The translations under genes and the position numbers were made by a program. Source: Elusimicrobia bacterium GWB2_63_22 (GTDB lineage Bacteria; Elusimicrobiota; Elusimicrobia; Elusimicrobiales; UBA9959). From it: a DNA stretch of 35,204 bases. The notes below the pieces were generated by a model. It worked only from the letters and a program-made list of their open reading frames with translations. It did not search any database and was not told where the DNA came from. Location: positions 1 to 35,204 of the forward strand of contig MGUA01000038.1 in the NCBI GenBank assembly GCA_001799735.1, given 5' to 3'. Shown here piece after piece: positions 5,585 to 17,713 of this stretch; positions within the stretch are counted from its first letter, which is position 1, and each line of letters starts with the position of its first letter.

Positions 5585-5973
5585 TTCAGACCGCGGATGG
5601 AGGGCCGCTCTTCCCGCAAGGGAGGGGAGGAACTTCCGAACTTCACAGGGCAGGGTGCCGGTTCAAACTTCGCAGCATTATATGAGCGGAGCATAGGCCG
5701 GGAGGCGGGGGCAACATCCCCCGTCGACGGACAGCGCCACAGAGAACATACCGCCCGCAAGGGTAAGGGTGAAAAGGTGCGGTAAGAGCGCACCGCGCGC
5801 CGGGCGACCGGCGCGGCAGGGCAAGCCCCCGCCTGGAGCAAGGCCAAAGTTGCGCGATGGATAGCCCGTCCGCCCCCTCCGGGGGGCAGCGCAGAGTGGG
5901 CCGCAATAGATAAATGGTCCTCCAAGCCCCGCAAGGGGCCGGACAGAATTCGGGGTACAGTCCGCGGTCTGAA
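5585..5973 (+). ncRNA. rnpB: RNase P RNA (bacterial type A)
   Basis: The catalytic RNA of RNase P matures tRNA 5' ends. The ends pair through a 13-bp P1 helix (5585-5597 with 5961-5973). Canonical conserved blocks appear in order: GAGGAA followed by CACAGGGCAGGGTGCC (about 5627-5660), GGGTAAGGGTGAAA then GGTGCGGTAAGAGCGCACCG (about 5760-5797), GGAGCAAGGCCAAA (5837-5850), GATAAATGGTCCTCC, and GACAGAATTCGGGGTAC (5942-5958). The length of about 389 nt and these blocks fit type A. The P4 helix (5632-5640 with 5949-5956) departs from the usual sequence on both strands but stays paired; see the findings. Expression probably comes from read-through or from a promoter hidden in the preceding palindrome region, since I see no clear promoter. 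Confidence 0.95.
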
Positions 5974-10487: not shown

Positions 10488-11249
10488 TTATTTGTAGCGC
10501 GCCTTCTGCTGCACCAGGCGTGCCTTTATGGCCTCTTCCAGGGTCGCCAGGTTAAGCGGCTTCTGCGCGTAGTCGAAAGCCCCCAGCTTCAGGCAGGCCC
10601 TCGCCATCTCTTCGTCTTCGTTGCCGGTGATCATCAGTATCCCGATCTCCGGCATCGTTTCCGTCAGATTTTTCAGCACCGTCAGGCCGTCCCTCTCGGG
10701 CATGGCGATGTCGAGCAGTATGATGTCGGGCCTGGCCTCGCGGGCCAGCCGCTCCGTCTCCACCCCGTCCGCGGCGCTGATAACGCCGTAGCCGGCTTCG
10801 GCCAGCCAGCGGCTCAGCACGTAAATTATCGAGCTGTCGTCGTCCGCCACCATGATCAGGCCTTTGCCGCGCCGGGCGGCCGGCGGCTTGGGGGCGCCCG
10901 CCAGGCGGTCCACTTCGGCCAGCACCGCCGCCAGGCCTTCCGTTTCCGGGAAGACGCAGGAGGCGCCGGCGGCCAGGCAGGCCTCGGCGTCCGCCGGGTC
11001 CTCGCGGCGGGCCAGCATGATGACCGGCACCGTTTTGGAGAGCACCCGGATCTTGGCCAGCACCAGCGGCCCCGGCGCCGACGGCAGCTCGCGGGCCAGG
11101 ACCACCAGGTCCGGCTGGAAATCTTTGAAGGCCTGCACGCCGCCGTCGCCGTCCGCGGCGGCTCTCACCTCGTGCCCCTCTTTGACGAGGAAAACGCTCA
11201 GCGAGTCGCGCACCAGGGCTTCTTCGTTTATTATCAGGATCTTGGCCAC
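10488..11249 (-). CDS. Double-receiver response regulator, first receiver degenerate
   Basis: The 253-residue protein consists of two CheY-like receiver domains and no output domain. The second (about residues 128-250) is intact: acidic pocket Asp135-137, phosphoacceptor Asp179 in LLDIAMPERDG, Thr207 and Lys229 in AQKP. The first (1-115) has Ala52 where the phosphoacceptor Asp should be (LVVLARELPS), Glu9-Glu10 in the acidic pair and no conserved Lys (CVFPETE), so it cannot be phosphorylated in the normal way. The gene starts 4 bases after the sensor kinase stop on the same strand. It therefore probably exchanges phosphate or signals with that kinase, or acts as a phosphate sink. It converges with the nucleotidyltransferase gene; only 6 bases separate the stops. 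Confidence 0.9.
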   Translation of the reverse strand: MAKILIINEEALVRDSLSVFLVKEGHEVRAAADGDGGVQAFKDFQPDLVVLARELPSAPGPLVLAKIRVLSKTVPVIMLARREDPADAEACLAAGASCVFPETEGLAAVLAEVDRLAGAPKPPAARRGKGLIMVADDDSSIIYVLSRWLAEAGYGVISAADGVETERLAREARPDIILLDIAMPERDGLTVLKNLTETMPEIGILMITGNEDEEMARACLKLGAFDYAQKPLNLATLEEAIKARLVQQKARYK

Positions 11250-11253
11250 GATA

Positions 11254-13215
11254 TTATTTTTTATCCTTTTCTTCCTGCCGCTTTATGTCCGGGTTGCGCG
11301 CGAAGGCCTGGAACTTGCTCATCAGCTCCGCCGCGCGCTCCACCGCCTTTATGATCTGCGAGATCTCGCCTTTTATGGGATTGTCCCCGGCCAGGCCGTC
11401 GTCTATCAGCGTGGCGTAGCCGTTTATGGCGGCCAGCGCGTTGTTAAAGTCGTGCGCCATGGGGCGGGCCACCTTGCTCACCTCTTCGGCCGCCTTGGCC
11501 AGGGCCAGCTCGGCCTCCATCCGCTTGAGGTCCGTTATGTCGCGGGCTATGCCCAGCAGGCCTATGGTCTGCCCGTTCACGTTCTTCAGCGGGGTCTTTA
11601 TGATGTTGACGTGCCGGCTGCCGCCCGGGAAAGGGTGGTGGTTGTTCAGGGAGACTGTTTTGCCGCTGCGCACCACGTCGCTGTCGGTGCGGAACACCTC
11701 GGCGGCGGTCTGCGGGGGGAAATAGTCGGAATCGGTGCGCCCTATCATCTCTTCCGTCGTGGTGCCCATCAGGGCGGCGCAGGCCTTGTTGGCCTTCACG
11801 TACATGCCGTTCATGTCCTTGATAAAGATGGCGTCCGCGGCCGTGTCGAACATCATGCGCAGGGTGGTCTCGCTTTCTCTGAGCAGCAGCTCGGTCTTCT
11901 TCTGCTCTGTCACGTCGCGGATGACGCCGGTGATGTAGACCGGCTGGCCGTTGCGGAAGACCACGCCGCTTTTCTGTTCCACGTAGGCGTAGGTGCCGTC
12001 CTTCTTCTTGAGCCGGTACGGCAGGATGGGCAGCGTGCGGCCGGTCTTTACGGCGTTGGCCCAGGCCTTGGCGATGAAATCCCTGTCTTCGGGGTGCGAG
12101 AACTCTCCCACGCTGCGGCCCGTCAGCTCTTCCGCGGTATAGCCGTAGTCGTCCACCCGCGGGCTCACGTAGGTGAGGCGGCCCTGCAGGTCCGCCGTGT
12201 AGATGGTGTCCTTGGTCGCCGACACGATGGTCTTGAACCGGCTGTCCTCCTCGCGCTGCCGGTCCTCGGCGGCCTTGCGCTGGAGGATCATGGCGTAGAC
12301 GCGGGCCAGCTTCTGGGCCGTTTCCAGCGATTCGGCGCCGTACTCCCCGGCCGGGTTGGCCAGGGACAGCATGCCTAGCAGCTTCCGGCCCGACAGGGCC
12401 GGCACGCCCAAAAATTTTTCTATCCGGATATGGCCGTGCGGCAGCCCGGACGAGCGGCGGTCGGAGGGGGCCTTGTTGGTGAGCAGCGGCTTCTTGCGCT
12501 TGAGCACCCAGCCCCAGAGGCCTTTGAAGTCCTTGAACACTACCGGCCGCTCCGCCATGCGGCAGCTGTCCCAGGTCTCGCTGGTGAGCGAGGGGACCAG
12601 CATATAGCCGGTGAGCGGGTCTATATAGCCGGCGAAGCCGAAGGCGCTGCCGGTCATGCGCCGCGCCTCGTCCAGCACGGCGCGGGAGATCTCTTCGATG
12701 GAGATGCCGGGGTAGGAAAGGTAGAGCTCCTCTATGTGCTTGACCGAGGAGGACAGGTCGCGCTCGAAGGCCAGCTCCGCGTCGCGCTTCTCGTTGGCGG
12801 CGCGGGCGGCAATGATCTTGGCGGCCGTCTCTATCAGGCCGGCGGCCGCGTGGGGGTTCTTGGGGCGCTCCTGCAGGTGCGCCAGCAGCCTCCCGGCTCC
12901 GGCGCCGGCCGGCCGGATCTCCCCGCGCAGGGTAAGCCCGCGCGGGCCCGGGAAGGATTTTTTATGTCCGGCCAGCAACCCGCGGCGCTGCTCCGCCGGG
13001 GTGTTCCTGAAGGCGGCTATGGTCTTGCCCTGCCGGTCTTCCAGGATGATGGCCAGGGAACTTTTGCGCCCCAGGCCGCCGGGCCTGGAGAGGATCTCGA
13101 GTATTTTTTTAAGGAAGGGGGCCAGGTTGGCCTGCGTGAAAGCCGCCAGCAGCAGCGCCTGCATGGTCTTGCCGAGTACGGCGGTGTCCTGGTGTGTAAC
13201 GCCGGAATTGTTCAT
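11254..13215 (-). CDS. GAF/PAS sensor histidine kinase lacking the ATPase domain
   Basis: The 653-residue protein has no membrane segment. Domains in order are a GAF-like region (about 15-165), a second GAF (about 175-335), PAS-PAC (about 345-460), a second PAS-PAC (about 465-580) and a HisKA dimerisation helix with the phospho-acceptor motif MAHDFNNALAAINGY (His588). The protein then ends after 65 more residues in a charged tail. The expected HATPase_c domain with its N, G1 and G2 boxes is missing, and only 4 bases separate its stop from the next gene. It therefore cannot autophosphorylate alone. It may be phosphorylated by a partner kinase or act as a phosphotransfer or phosphatase module. 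Its start overlaps the regulator stop (ATGA, 13212-13215). Confidence 0.9.
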   Translation of the reverse strand: MNNSGVTHQDTAVLGKTMQALLLAAFTQANLAPFLKKILEILSRPGGLGRKSSLAIILEDRQGKTIAAFRNTPAEQRRGLLAGHKKSFPGPRGLTLRGEIRPAGAGAGRLLAHLQERPKNPHAAAGLIETAAKIIAARAANEKRDAELAFERDLSSSVKHIEELYLSYPGISIEEISRAVLDEARRMTGSAFGFAGYIDPLTGYMLVPSLTSETWDSCRMAERPVVFKDFKGLWGWVLKRKKPLLTNKAPSDRRSSGLPHGHIRIEKFLGVPALSGRKLLGMLSLANPAGEYGAESLETAQKLARVYAMILQRKAAEDRQREEDSRFKTIVSATKDTIYTADLQGRLTYVSPRVDDYGYTAEELTGRSVGEFSHPEDRDFIAKAWANAVKTGRTLPILPYRLKKKDGTYAYVEQKSGVVFRNGQPVYITGVIRDVTEQKKTELLLRESETTLRMMFDTAADAIFIKDMNGMYVKANKACAALMGTTTEEMIGRTDSDYFPPQTAAEVFRTDSDVVRSGKTVSLNNHHPFPGGSRHVNIIKTPLKNVNGQTIGLLGIARDITDLKRMEAELALAKAAEEVSKVARPMAHDFNNALAAINGYATLIDDGLAGDNPIKGEISQIIKAVERAAELMSKFQAFARNPDIKRQEEKDKK

Positions 13216-13895
13216 TCGAATTTATAGCCGTGGCCGGGCACGGCCTTGATGCGCTTGCCGAAAGAGCCTATCTTGCGGCGCAGGTTGGAGACGTGCACCT
13301 CCACGGTATGCGGGTCGTTATAGTCGGCGGTGTTGTAGCCCCACACGGCCTCCAGCAGGCTGTTGAGGCTGAGTACCTTGCCGGGCTTGGAGGTGAGGGT
13401 GTGCAGCAGGTCGAATTCTTTGGAGGTCAGCTTTACCGGCTTGTTCTTTATCTTTATGGTGCGGCCTTCCAGGTTGAGCTGCAGGTCGCCGGATTTCAGC
13501 ACGGCTTCCTTCTTTTTGCCGCGGGCGGCGCGCTTGATCATGGCCTTGGCCTTGGCCAGCAGCACCGGGTAGGAGAAGGGCTTTACCACGTAATCGTCGG
13601 CGCCGTAGCCGTAGCCGGCCACGTGGTCGGCCTCGGAGATCTTCTTGCCGGTCATGATGATGACGGGGATATCGGCGAGCACCTTGTTCTCTTTGATGCG
13701 GCGGCAGAGGGTGAAGCCGTCCATGCGGGGCATCTCTATGTCCGTTATTATAAGGTCGGGTTTGCCGGAGGCGGCGGCCAGGGCTTCGGCGCCGTTGGCG
13801 GCGGTGATGGTTTCCAGGCCGTGGTTCTCGAGATACCGCTTGAGGATGCCCAGCAGCTCCGGGTCGTCATCCACAATAAGTACGCGCTCTTTCAT
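13212..13895 (-). CDS. OmpR/PhoB-family response regulator
   Basis: The 227-residue protein has a receiver domain (phosphoacceptor Asp52 in ITDIEMPRMDG, acidic residues in VDDDPE, Thr82, Lys105 in VVKPF) and a C-terminal winged helix (about 130-227) ending in HTVEVHVSNLRRKIG and VPGHGYKFE. Regulators of this family bind tandem 7-bp half-sites spaced by 11 bp. Exactly such repeats occur at the twin-RNA promoters 1.4-1.7 kb upstream on the same strand. It is the first gene of the three-gene two-component operon. A TATAAT element (reverse strand, 13902-13907) lies 6 bases before its ATG, suggesting a leaderless mRNA. Confidence 0.95.
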   Translation of the reverse strand: MKERVLIVDDDPELLGILKRYLENHGLETITAANGAEALAAASGKPDLIITDIEMPRMDGFTLCRRIKENKVLADIPVIIMTGKKISEADHVAGYGYGADDYVVKPFSYPVLLAKAKAMIKRAARGKKKEAVLKSGDLQLNLEGRTIKIKNKPVKLTSKEFDLLHTLTSKPGKVLSLNSLLEAVWGYNTADYNDPHTVEVHVSNLRRKIGSFGKRIKAVPGHGYKFE

Positions 13896-13939: not shown

Positions 13940-14926
13940 CTAGTTCTTGGGCGACGGCTTGCCGCCGGCCAGGGGAACAAAACTTGCGCGGCCGTTCAGG
14001 AAAAGCACCCCCAGCTCTTTCCCGTTGGCGGTAAAATTTATCGCGTGAGGGATCTTCTCGTAGTCCTTGGCGTAAACTGTTTCAAAGCCGGGCAGGCGGT
14101 AGACCTTCACCGTGCCGCTCCCGTAAAGCACGGCCATGTGGGCCGTGGAGAAATAGATGGAACGGACCGTGTGGCCGCGGTCCCGCAGCGTCTTTACCGG
14201 GGCCCAGCCTGGGACCGCCACCACCCGGGTTTCACCGCTGACGGACCCATACGCGAACAGTTTGCCGTCGGGAGAGAAAGCCAGGGCGGAGATTGGGGAG
14301 AGGGGGTCTTTCTTGAACTGGAACGAAACGGCGGACTTGCCGGTCTTCAGCTCCAGCATGTTGACAAAGCTGCCCGCCACCCTCCCCTCCTTGTTCAGCC
14401 TGCCGAAATAATAGGCGAGATACTTGTCGCCGGGAGAGAAGATCGCCCAGCCTTTTTCCGACTGGTCGGCCAAAACGTAGAGCGGGGAGAACTGCCCTCC
14501 GGAGAGGCGGTAGATCCTGTAAACATCCGAGCCGTTGGCGAGCAGTTCCGTGGTTGCGGCGTATCTGAAGCCTGGCGAAACGCTGGTAAGACCGCCCTGC
14601 GGCACAGCGGTGTTGCTTAGTATCTCCCCGCGCATTGAGAGCTTCAGCAGCTCCTGCCCGGTGCCATACGAGGCGGCCAGCGTTTTGCCGTCCGGGCTTA
14701 GGCCGAACAGGCACTGGCCCCGGGGCAGCGAGATGGATTTGTGGAATTTTTTGTCTTTGACCGTGCCGAAACTTATGGTCTGGGGGGTTTCGCCCCAGCC
14801 GGACACAAAATAGCCGCCGTCGGGAGAGAAGAACAGCCCGGCTGCGGTGCAGAGGTGGCCGGCGCAGGCCGGCGCGGGCGCTGAAAAAAAAGCGGCGCAG
14901 AATAAAGCAAGAACGGCGCGCATCAT
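13940..14926 (-). CDS. Secreted WD40-like beta-propeller protein
   Basis: The 328-residue protein has a signal peptide (MMRAVLALFCAAFFSAPAPACAG). Repeated propeller-blade motifs follow (LFFSPDGGYFVSG, LFGLSPDGKTLAAS, AIFSPGDKYLAYYF, ALAFSPDGKLFAYGS, FTANGKELGVLF), each an F-SPDG-type turn between strands. Such propellers usually bind proteins or ligands, and no catalytic residues can be assigned. The ATG has AAGGAG 3 bases upstream, and a reverse-strand TATAAT at 14972-14977 can serve as -10. The gene lies between the twin RNAs and the two-component operon on the same strand, so read-through of the second RNA terminator would enter it. Confidence 0.8.
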   Translation of the reverse strand: MMRAVLALFCAAFFSAPAPACAGHLCTAAGLFFSPDGGYFVSGWGETPQTISFGTVKDKKFHKSISLPRGQCLFGLSPDGKTLAASYGTGQELLKLSMRGEILSNTAVPQGGLTSVSPGFRYAATTELLANGSDVYRIYRLSGGQFSPLYVLADQSEKGWAIFSPGDKYLAYYFGRLNKEGRVAGSFVNMLELKTGKSAVSFQFKKDPLSPISALAFSPDGKLFAYGSVSGETRVVAVPGWAPVKTLRDRGHTVRSIYFSTAHMAVLYGSGTVKVYRLPGFETVYAKDYEKIPHAINFTANGKELGVLFLNGRASFVPLAGGKPSPKN

Positions 14927-15050
14927 TAACTCCTTTCCCTTCCGGCCTGGCCGGGTTGCTGGCTACTTCCAATTATAAGTAAAAAAAGCGGCGTTCGGTT
15001 GAAAATTTTCAAAGAAACGCGCCAAGGGAGGGGGAAAAGGCCGGGGGGAT

Positions 15051-15259
15051 AAAAAAGCGCCCCGCCGGAACGTTCATGAGGAGGTACAGTTGGACTTACG
15101 AAGGAGTCTTACCTGTTGTTGCCCGGCGGGGCTTTTAAAAAGCCAGCGCTGCAGGTGCATAGAGCACGGACCCGAAGGCCCGCGTCTTGGGGGTTTGGGT
15201 TAGGGGGGCGCACCGTACAACGCTGGGGATCTGTTTTGTAAAGAGCAGACTGCTATTAC
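15051..15259 (-). ncRNA. Candidate structured small RNA, copy B of a tandem pair
   Basis: The predicted transcript runs from about 15259 to the T-run complement at 15051-15056. Read on the - strand it has four parts. First is an outer stem (15221-15226 with 15143-15148). Second is an inner stem (15210-15214 with 15154-15158). Third is a UUCG tetraloop hairpin (15167-15182) preceded by a C-rich single strand (complement of 15186-15209). Last is a terminator stem CCGGCGGGG type (15060-15068 with 15123-15131) followed by six T. The terminator loop contains CCUCCUC. It is about 70-80% alike to copy A. No ORF with coding character lies in it. I recognise no Rfam family. Boundaries are inferred from promoter and terminator. 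Confidence 0.65.
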
Positions 15260-15265
15260 GTAAAA

Positions 15266-15297
15266 AGTATAACAAAGGCCGTTCAAGAATCGTTCAA
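15266..15297 (-). promoter_or_regulatory. Promoter of small RNA B with phased direct repeats
   Basis: Read on the - strand: two identical heptads TTGAACG (15297-15291 and 15286-15280) start 11 bp apart, then 8 bp, then TATACT (15271-15266) as -10. Heptads of 7 bp plus 4 bp placed just upstream of -10 and replacing a -35 are typical of sites for activating OmpR/PhoB-type regulators. Confidence 0.6.
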
Positions 15298-15310
15298 ATC
15301 TTACCGCTTC

Positions 15311-15513
15311 AAAATTGGCCCCGCCGGAGGTTGAGGGAGACTGACAAAAGCCTTAACATGGAGACTTATCTGTTGCCCGGCGGGGTTTAAATTAGACCAG
15401 CGCTGCAGGTACTAGAGCATCGGGCCCGAAGGCCCGCGTCTTTGGGGGGTTGGGTTAGGGGGGCGCACCGTACAGCGCTGGAGATCGTTAGTTTTTAAAG
15501 AGCGAACTTCTAT
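15311..15513 (-). ncRNA. Candidate structured small RNA, copy A of a tandem pair
   Basis: This is homologous to copy B, about 255 bp upstream in the same orientation. On the - strand it has the outer stem (15476-15481 with 15397-15402), the inner stem (15465-15469 with 15408-15412), a perfect UUCG hairpin (15421-15436), the same C-rich strand before it, and a terminator stem (15319-15327 with 15377-15385) followed by a weaker T-run. The terminator loop differs from copy B but keeps CU-rich motifs (CUCCCUC, CCUCC). Differences between the copies in two stems change G-C to G-U on the - strand, which supports both the fold and the strand. Confidence 0.65.
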
Positions 15514-15519
15514 ACTCAA

Positions 15520-15573
15520 AGTATAGGATAATCCGTTCAGGAAACGCTCAAATACGGCTCAAAACCCGCTCAA
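15520..15573 (-). promoter_or_regulatory. Promoter of small RNA A with four phased heptads
   Basis: Read on the - strand, heptads of the form TTGAGCG/TTGAGCC/TTGAGCG/CTGAACG (15573-15567, 15562-15556, 15551-15545, 15540-15534) recur exactly every 11 bp, followed by 8 bp and TATACT (15525-15520). The 8-bp gap and the -10 are the same as at copy B, while the number of half-sites is doubled. Confidence 0.62.
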
Positions 15574-15618: not shown

Positions 15619-15637
15619 AGCTTTGCGGTCAAAAACC

Positions 15638-17713
15638 ATGACTTCCATCCAGTTCTTAAAGGGCGTCGGCCCCAAAAAAGCGGAACTCTTCTCGCGCCTG
15701 GGCGTGGAGACCATGGACGACCTGCTGTTCTATTTCCCTCGCAGTTGGGAGGACCGCCGCCTGCCCGGCAAAAGGGAGCCGCTGCCCATCCTGGAGGACG
15801 CCCCTTTAATAAAAGGAAAGATAAAGAGCGTCAGGGACCTGCACACCTCCAGCGCCCTGCGCATCTTCAAGACCGTGGTGGAGACGCCTTTAGGCGAGGC
15901 CGAGGCCAGCTTCTTCAAACGCCACAGCCCCCGGTTCGACGTGTTCGCCCCGCTGCGCAAGGACCTTAAGGAAGGCCGCACGGTGTGGATCACCGGCACC
16001 CCGGAGGACCCGCTGTTCGTCAGCCGCCTGCGGGCCGACGAATACTACGCCGACGACGACGCCCGCGCGCTGAAGATGCATGTGGGCCGCATAGTGCCGG
16101 TGTACCCGCTCACCGAGGGCCTCACCGCGCGCTTCATGCGCGAGGCCGTGTACGAGGCCGTGCAGGCCGGCCACGAGGCCGTGTGGGATTTCCTGCCGCC
16201 CGAGCTGGCCGCCCGGCGCGGCCTGATTACGCGCCAGCTGGCCGCCCGGGCCATCCATTTTCCGGAGAACAATTATGAGCTGGTGGCCGCCCGCCGCCGC
16301 TTTATCTACGAGGAGCTGCTGCTGCTGGCCCTGGCCTGGGCCATAAAGAAGCGCCAGACCCGCTCGGTACAGAAGGGCTTCTCCTACGAGATCAAGAAGA
16401 CCCTGCTCACCCCTTTCCGTCAGAACCTGGGCTTTAATCTGACCAATGCCCAGGCCCACGCCATAAACGAGATCTTCACCGACATGCAGGCCCCCACACC
16501 CATGGCCCGCCTGCTGGAGGGCGACGTGGGCTCCGGCAAAACCGTGGTGGCGATCTCCGCCATGCTGCTGGCGGCCGAGAACGGCGGCCAGAGCGTGTTC
16601 GCCGCGCCTACCGAGATCCTGGCCGAGCAGCATTTTCTCACTTTCGAGCGCTTCCTCAAGGGGCTGGGCGTGCGCGCCGCCCTGCTGACCGGCCGCGTTA
16701 AAGCCGCCGAGAAGAAAAAGCTCCTGGCCGACCTGGCCGAGGGCAAAATAGATATCCTGCTCGGCACCCACGCCGTCATGGGCGAGGGCGTTAAGTTCAA
16801 GAACCTGCGGCTGGTGGTGATAGACGAGCAGCACCGCTTTGGCGTGCGCCAGCGCGCGGCCCTGCGCGCCAAGGGCGACCGCGCCGACATGCTTATCATG
16901 ACCGCCACCCCCATACCGCGCACCCTGTTCCTCGCCCTCTACGGCGACCTGGACCTGTCCGTCATTAAAGAAATGCCGCCCGGCCGCAAGCCCATTAAGA
17001 CCTCCGAGGCCACCGAGGACGTGGCCTTTATGGCCGCAAAGGACGAGGTGGCAAAAGGCCGGCAGGTGTATGTGGTCTATCCCGTCATAGAAGAGACCGC
17101 CGAGGCCGACATGAAGTCGGTGAAGGCCGAATTCGAGCGGCTCAAAATTCTTTTCCGCGGCAAACGGGTCGACATGCTGCACGGCCGCATGCCCGGCGAG
17201 CTTAAAAAACAGGTGATGGAAGACTTTGCCGCCGGCCGCACGGACATTTTGGTGGCCACGCAGGTGATAGAGGTGGGCATAGACGTGGCCAACGCCACCC
17301 TGATGATCATAAACAACGCCGAGCGCTACGGCCTGGCCAGCCTGCACCAGCTGCGCGGCCGCGTGGGCCGCGGTAAGCACGATTCCCGCTGCCTGCTGGT
17401 AGCCCACAGCCGCAACGGCGACGCCGCCGACCGCCTGCGCGCCATGGTGCAAACCGCCAACGGCTTCGAGCTGAGCGAAAAAGACATCTACATCCGCGGC
17501 GCCGGCGAAATACTGGGCGTGCGCCAGCACGGCGACATGGACTTCAAGCTGGCCGACATGTCCCGCGATAAAGATATTCTGGAACTCGCCATGGCTGACC
17601 GCGAAACCATCCTGGCCGAAGACCCTAACCTGGAGAAACGCTCCAACGCCGGCCTGCACAAGCGCCTGCACGACCTCTACGCCGCCCGCTGGAACCTGAT
17701 AGACCTGGCCTGA
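15638..17713 (+). CDS. recG: ATP-dependent DNA helicase RecG
   Basis: RecG remodels stalled replication forks and branch-migrates Holliday junctions. ATG 15638 gives MTSIQFLKGVGPKKAELF, the usual start of the family; the frame is also open to a TTG at 15623, for which I see no support. The 691-residue product has the N-terminal OB/wedge domain (about 1-250), helicase motif I LLEGDVGSGKTVVA, motif II DEQHRFG (the DEQH box), motif III MTATPIPRTL, and the C-terminal helicase lobe with ATQVIEVGIDVANA and QLRGRVGRG, ending in the usual RecG tail. It is transcribed alone; a large palindrome and a terminator follow. Confidence 0.97.
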   Translation: MTSIQFLKGVGPKKAELFSRLGVETMDDLLFYFPRSWEDRRLPGKREPLPILEDAPLIKGKIKSVRDLHTSSALRIFKTVVETPLGEAEASFFKRHSPRFDVFAPLRKDLKEGRTVWITGTPEDPLFVSRLRADEYYADDDARALKMHVGRIVPVYPLTEGLTARFMREAVYEAVQAGHEAVWDFLPPELAARRGLITRQLAARAIHFPENNYELVAARRRFIYEELLLLALAWAIKKRQTRSVQKGFSYEIKKTLLTPFRQNLGFNLTNAQAHAINEIFTDMQAPTPMARLLEGDVGSGKTVVAISAMLLAAENGGQSVFAAPTEILAEQHFLTFERFLKGLGVRAALLTGRVKAAEKKKLLADLAEGKIDILLGTHAVMGEGVKFKNLRLVVIDEQHRFGVRQRAALRAKGDRADMLIMTATPIPRTLFLALYGDLDLSVIKEMPPGRKPIKTSEATEDVAFMAAKDEVAKGRQVYVVYPVIEETAEADMKSVKAEFERLKILFRGKRVDMLHGRMPGELKKQVMEDFAAGRTDILVATQVIEVGIDVANATLMIINNAERYGLASLHQLRGRVGRGKHDSRCLLVAHSRNGDAADRLRAMVQTANGFELSEKDIYIRGAGEILGVRQHGDMDFKLADMSRDKDILELAMADRETILAEDPNLEKRSNAGLHKRLHDLYAARWNLIDLA

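Follow-up and report, generated by a model that had tools for sequence, protein, structure and literature searches.

RoxS/RsaE of Bacillus and Staphylococcus make their contacts through C-rich regions, which are neutralised by the G-rich sponge RNA RosA, in bacteria for which no RNA hub protein like Hfq is known (PMC8216469). The multicopy C-rich sRNAs LhrC1-5 of Listeria depend strictly on the two-component system LisRK and aim UCCC motifs at Shine-Dalgarno (SD) sequences; an 11-bp repeat box for LisR is not reported in that study (PMC4132741). The csRNAs of Streptococcus form a set of similar small RNAs, each with its own terminator and with anti-SD/anti-AUG stretches, and they are activated by the response regulator CiaR through a direct repeat in 11-bp register, TTTAAG-N5-TTTAAG (PMC3091779). 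The Nus-factor element boxA (consensus GYTCTTTAANA), in turn, lies early in the untranslated leaders of rrn and suhB (PMC5725501).

Here we describe a twin RNA of the Elusimicrobiota that, on our best reading, would work like RoxS/RsaE, LhrC and the csRNAs, yet is a member of none of these families. It resembles the RoxS/RosA pair in its predicted C-rich contact region, its candidate G-rich partner (here a 3' UTR) and an Hfq-less setting, but has no sequence or structural homology to RoxS/RsaE by Rfam at the locus, and instead forms one long stem with a C-rich bulge and carries a boxA and an 11-bp box. With the csRNAs it shares its multiplicity, its terminators and the register of its repeat, but not the repeat sequence, the structure, the phylum or any visible anti-SD/anti-AUG stretch, and its sequence is unrelated to LhrC. 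Like the rrn and suhB leaders it has boxA early in untranslated RNA, but on a stand-alone small RNA of ~200 nt. We know of no described sRNA family that carries boxA, and our search of the open-access literature found no regulatory sRNA described for Elusimicrobiota.

The window, which is the whole 35,204-nt stretch of DNA analysed here (contig C38 of a 3.06-Mb genome), holds two homologous units on the - strand at 15051-15573, between recG and a beta-propeller gene. Units A and B are 82% identical over aligned columns and have the same order of parts: a -10 element TATACT, an rRNA-like boxA, a stem (P1), an apical UUCG hairpin, a spacer and a second GC-rich hairpin with a ~50-nt loop, which ends in a U-run in copy A and is poor in U in the upstream copy B (15311-15385). 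P1 has 16 bp (11 + 5 bp; some units have a bulged C) and bears on its 5' side a 23-nt C-rich bulge, facing one or two A/U on the 3' side. The C-rich strands, at 15187-15209 (A) and 15442-15464 (B), are 255 bp apart. The outer stem is formed by 15216-15226/15143-15153 in A and 15471-15481/15397-15407 in B, and the inner stem by 15210-15214/15154-15158 and 15465-15469/15408-15412, respectively. All parts described in an earlier sequence-only reading were found at their positions, and the distance from -10 to terminator predicts an RNA of ~205 nt per unit. The candidate activator box in 11-bp register, boxA, the linked two-component system and the terminator-loop repeats are additions to that reading. 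No ORF of at least 80 aa overlaps either unit, and no further copies were found in the window's own genome at that search level. The features are as follows.

15623..17713, + strand: recG, the conserved upstream neighbour
15535..15573, - strand: candidate activator box of unit B, four TTGA(G/A)C-type repeats every 11 bp (TTGAGC TTGAGC TTGAGC CTGAAC), the sole four-repeat box in the 3.06-Mb genome
15520..15525, - strand: -10 element TATACT of unit B; the last repeat starts 15 bp away
15491..15503, - strand: boxA of unit B, GCUCUUUAAAAAC, which matches the boxA in rrn leaders from the genus
15397..15481, - strand: core of unit B (alignment and covariation), with 16-bp P1, C-rich bulge 15442-15464 and UUCG hairpin 15421-15437
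15311..15385, - strand: terminator-like hairpin of unit B, with UMAGDC-repeat loop and weak U-tract
15281..15297, - strand: candidate activator box of unit A, two repeats in 11-bp register
15266..15271, - strand: -10 element TATACT of unit A
15233..15246, - strand: boxA of unit A, GCUCUUUACAAAAC
15143..15226, - strand: core of unit A (alignment and covariation), with P1, C-rich bulge 15187-15209 and UUCG hairpin 15167-15183
15050..15131, - strand: intrinsic terminator of unit A, with ~50-nt UMAGDC-repeat loop and U-run
13212..13895, - strand: OmpR/PhoB-type response regulator (receiver and Trans_reg_C), by linkage the likely activator
11254..13215, - strand: sensor protein (GAF-PAS-PAS and a weak HisKA match), no ATPase domain detected

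The fold is borne out by covariation in homologues. In an alignment of 50 distinct cores from relatives, P1 has standard pairs in 99.1% of cells and double compensatory changes in 11 of its 16 pairs; the double-change cells number 58, against 11.7 in shuffles, a level matched by none of 500 shuffles, and slid controls fail. One-sided changes in P1 give G-U wobbles on the - strand that would be A-C on the + strand. The apical hairpins have strongly diverged in sequence, yet refold across units, and the C-rich strand is extremely conserved. Between the two copies we count three stem differences (A/B: outer stem U.G/C-G, inner stem G-C/G.U, UUCG stem G.U/G-C) where the sequence-only reading had two; its statement that pairing is kept solely on the - strand holds for all three. 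From the covariation and the - strand wobbles we therefore conclude that both the observation and the strand call are correct.

At the DNA level, 46 of the 101 relatives searched carry the element, whole or in part. The covariance-model search proposed in the earlier reading, run on 341 genomes of the phylum, detected the RNA in 51 of the 59 genomes of the window's family, and gave a single marginal match (E = 0.09), treated as chance, in the 282 other Elusimicrobiota genomes. Twenty loci have two units within one stretch; others have a single unit, some of these at contig ends. As that reading had suspected, the RNA belongs to no recognised family: in Rfam 15 nothing at the locus exceeds the gathering threshold (best match E = 5.6). 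Covariation, Rfam and covariance-model searches agree on a twin, structured, - strand non-coding RNA of no described family, and we are virtually certain that it represents a new conserved sRNA family. When 84,980 species genomes were scanned for a fixed pattern, 51 stretches matched, eight of them outside the lineage (Omnitrophota, Halomonas and others); these eight lack the flanking stem and were rejected as chance matches.

As would be looked for in a two-component-controlled multicopy sRNA, each copy combines a candidate response-regulator box at -35 with a conserved independent structure that has its own promoter and terminator. TTGARC-type repeats stand upstream of -10 in strict 11-bp register, and 15 bp separate the start of the last one from the -10; this is a geometry typical of PhoB/OmpR-family activators. 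Of 63 units in which a -10 is present, four TTGA repeats occur in 44 and two or three in 19, always in exact 11-bp register. At every tandem locus the upstream copy has four; in half of these loci the downstream copy has two or three. Two repeats plus a -10 occur in the window's genome only at the two sRNA promoters. A scan for box plus -10 across 59 genomes gave four control matches, and the other matches of the family-wide scan were mostly the same sRNA promoters.

In every genus tested the RNA adjoins the same OmpR/PhoB-type regulator and PAS/GAF sensor gene, in the order recG-sRNA-RR-HK in the window's genus and genera g3, g8 and g11, and RR-HK-sRNA in genera g2, g12 and g13. The regulator scores highest to PhoB and its relatives, though under their cut-offs. 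Linkage and spacing point to it as the protein that would bind the box, and control of the twin RNAs by this two-component system seems to us probable. The sensor protein has no ATPase domain at E < 0.001 and so may not be a self-sufficient kinase; its orthologues align across almost the same length. Downstream of the sensor gene, 10488-11249 encodes two receiver domains and no output domain. The beta-propeller gene (13940-14926), which lies between the sRNA pair and the regulator gene, is missing there in most relatives.

A GYUCUYU boxA is present in 63 of 64 units, 19-41 nt past the -10. It resembles the rrn leader sequence GCTCTCTAAAAAATT of genus members, which were compared since the window's own 16S locus is outside the assembly; in four of these members the rrn leader contains GCTCTCTAAAAAATTA. 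Such sites are rare, with only 12 boxA-like matches in 722 kb of the window's genome. We infer that NusB-S10 may bind the boxA of the sRNA.

We looked for partners of the C-rich strand, CCCCCCUAACCC, which is not anti-SD-like. Weak model matches led to a G-rich stretch on contig C2, directly past the stop codon of a gene for an HTH-receiver regulator of 196 aa. No other conserved perfect complement was detected. The predicted duplex of this element with the sRNA has -48.9 kcal/mol, the next best among 528 of the genome's own 3' ends being -31.1. Duplex energies are -37 to -54 kcal/mol in 18 of 19 genus members with the G-rich element, and the element scores likewise in two further members (L160 and L174). 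Two genus members (L178, L179) keep the sRNA and lack the element; one genome (G001) has the element and no detected sRNA in an incomplete (83%) assembly. In many genomes the match runs on into a flanking GGCG(C/U)AC, complementary to the P1 strand GU(G/A)CGCC.

The G-rich element is about equally complementary to the loop UCCCUCACCCUACCCCCC of a second RNA; its partner is thus not necessarily the twin RNA, and it may serve both. This class III hairpin RNA of ~50 nt lies just downstream of the element, behind the element's own terminator, and has a strong sigma-70-like promoter (TTGACA-N17-TAGAAT). Its sequence is the same almost to the letter in three genera, with diverged flanks, and Rfam has no match to it; in genus g8 (L180) GGGTGAGGGAGGC matches class III exactly. 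On contig C2 it reads GUCAGGGCUGCCUCCCUCACCCUACCCCCCAAAAGGCAGCCCUGCC followed by a U-run (L134:2841-2893, - strand), with neighbours in L156-L185. Class II hairpins (L135, L136, L137, L138, L143, L144) have a distinct long stem (GGGGCCGCGUA...) and the loop CCUCCCUAACCCAAACCCC. The twin RNA and classes II and III have the C-rich strand in common, but not their stems.

The second hairpin of the unit has a feature of its own: its loop contains 1.9 UMAGDC motifs per terminator, compared with 0.08 in shuffles, at a spacing of 10-17 nt (mostly 11-13). The motif may bind a protein. Cores of genera g2, g12 and g13 have no repeat-loop terminator and different unit ends, so we regard the module as accessory. 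In one g2 locus (L049, - strand) a GUAAGAC-repeat hairpin lies directly upstream of the C-rich core and not after it, with the modules permuted.

Taken together, we lean towards an undescribed, two-component-controlled, trans-acting C-rich sRNA, predicted from sequence to work as follows. The adjacent GAF/PAS sensor protein would signal to the OmpR/PhoB-type regulator, which would bind the TTGARC repeats standing in for -35 and switch on transcription of both copies; with four repeats on copy B and two on copy A, the copies may respond at different signal levels. Through its rRNA-type boxA the nascent RNA would attract NusB-S10 and so assist RNA polymerase in transcribing this untranslated, C-rich sequence. 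In the folded RNA, a rigid stem would expose the 23-nt C-rich strand for pairing with G-rich RNA, with no need of Hfq. The best-supported partner of the sRNA is the element in the HTH-receiver mRNA; this would be either a target of regulation by the sRNA or a sponge for it.

The sequence-only reading had proposed that the C-rich strand masks SD sequences, and C-rich sRNAs such as LhrC and RsaE do act in this way (PMC4132741). One start region of the window's genome, that of a WrbA-like flavodoxin on contig C29, also has a 12-base match, GGGTTAGGGAGG, over its SD. However, at start regions the real loop (-12.3 kcal/mol in the final gene set, filtered on GC3) pairs no better than shuffled loops (-13.2 +/- 0.9), SD-masking enrichment over shuffled loops is seen in neither of two gene sets, and, the 3' UTR site aside, 12-mer complements across the genome are no more frequent than the reversed-pattern control gives by chance. 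General blocking of many ribosome-binding sites is therefore a claim we give up as improbable. We rate similarly low the idea of a cis-acting leader, in which boxA and the structured RNA would govern read-through into the downstream regulator gene: the units do lie directly upstream of that gene in the window's genus, g3, g8 and g11, and boxA is an antitermination element (PMC5725501), but the RNA is downstream of the kinase in g2, g12 and g13, the beta-propeller gene intervenes in the window and most units end in their own terminators.

A protein-binding or sequestering RNA deserves more weight, though we still think it rather unlikely. CsrB and RsmZ, which bind CsrA, are the model for this possibility; here the stem and invariant C-rich bulge, perhaps with the UMAGDC repeats, would hold an RNA-binding protein and pair with no mRNA. 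The C-rich strand is conserved far beyond a typical seed, and this extreme conservation could equally mean protein binding. The abundance of the repeats, the general lack of enrichment at translation starts and the absence of Hfq (found in none of 41 relatives, with controls working) fit as well. Against it, the conserved complement in trans spans 20-25 nt and reaches past the C-rich bulge into the stem strand, and the repeat-loop terminator is missing from the g2, g12 and g13 cores. On balance, RNA pairing appears to us the better candidate for the main mode of the twin RNA. The long stem with its one-sided internal loop also recalls 6S RNA, and a lineage-specific polymerase-binding RNA would suit a lineage where RF00013 has no match, at the locus or in 61 relatives, despite detected controls. 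The C-rich bulge differs from a promoter bubble, however, and linkage to one two-component system, presence in two copies and lack of any Rfam similarity make this explanation scarcely credible.

The result is an RNA family backed by covariance, for which a regulator, an operator, an antitermination element and an RNA partner can be predicted. If the trans-acting sRNA reading is right, two-component-driven C-rich sRNAs with G-rich sponges extend to a phylum where Hfq was not found, and boxA occurs on a small RNA. We further speculate, with considerable reservation, that one Elusimicrobiota family has an Hfq-less C-rich/G-rich RNA network of its own, in which three hairpin RNAs that are not related (twin, class II and class III) but have near-identical C-rich strands would face a G-rich 3'-UTR sponge on a regulator mRNA, the twin being a boxA-protected sRNA and perhaps the main output of its own two-component system.

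Two minor observations concern the surroundings. In six genus members a TTGARC-N5-TTGARC box with TATAAT at the same spacing precedes a NifU-like gene (L272-L277); the window's own genome has no such box plus -10 before that gene. The sole Rfam match in the window is a class A RNase P RNA at 5589-5973 on the + strand.
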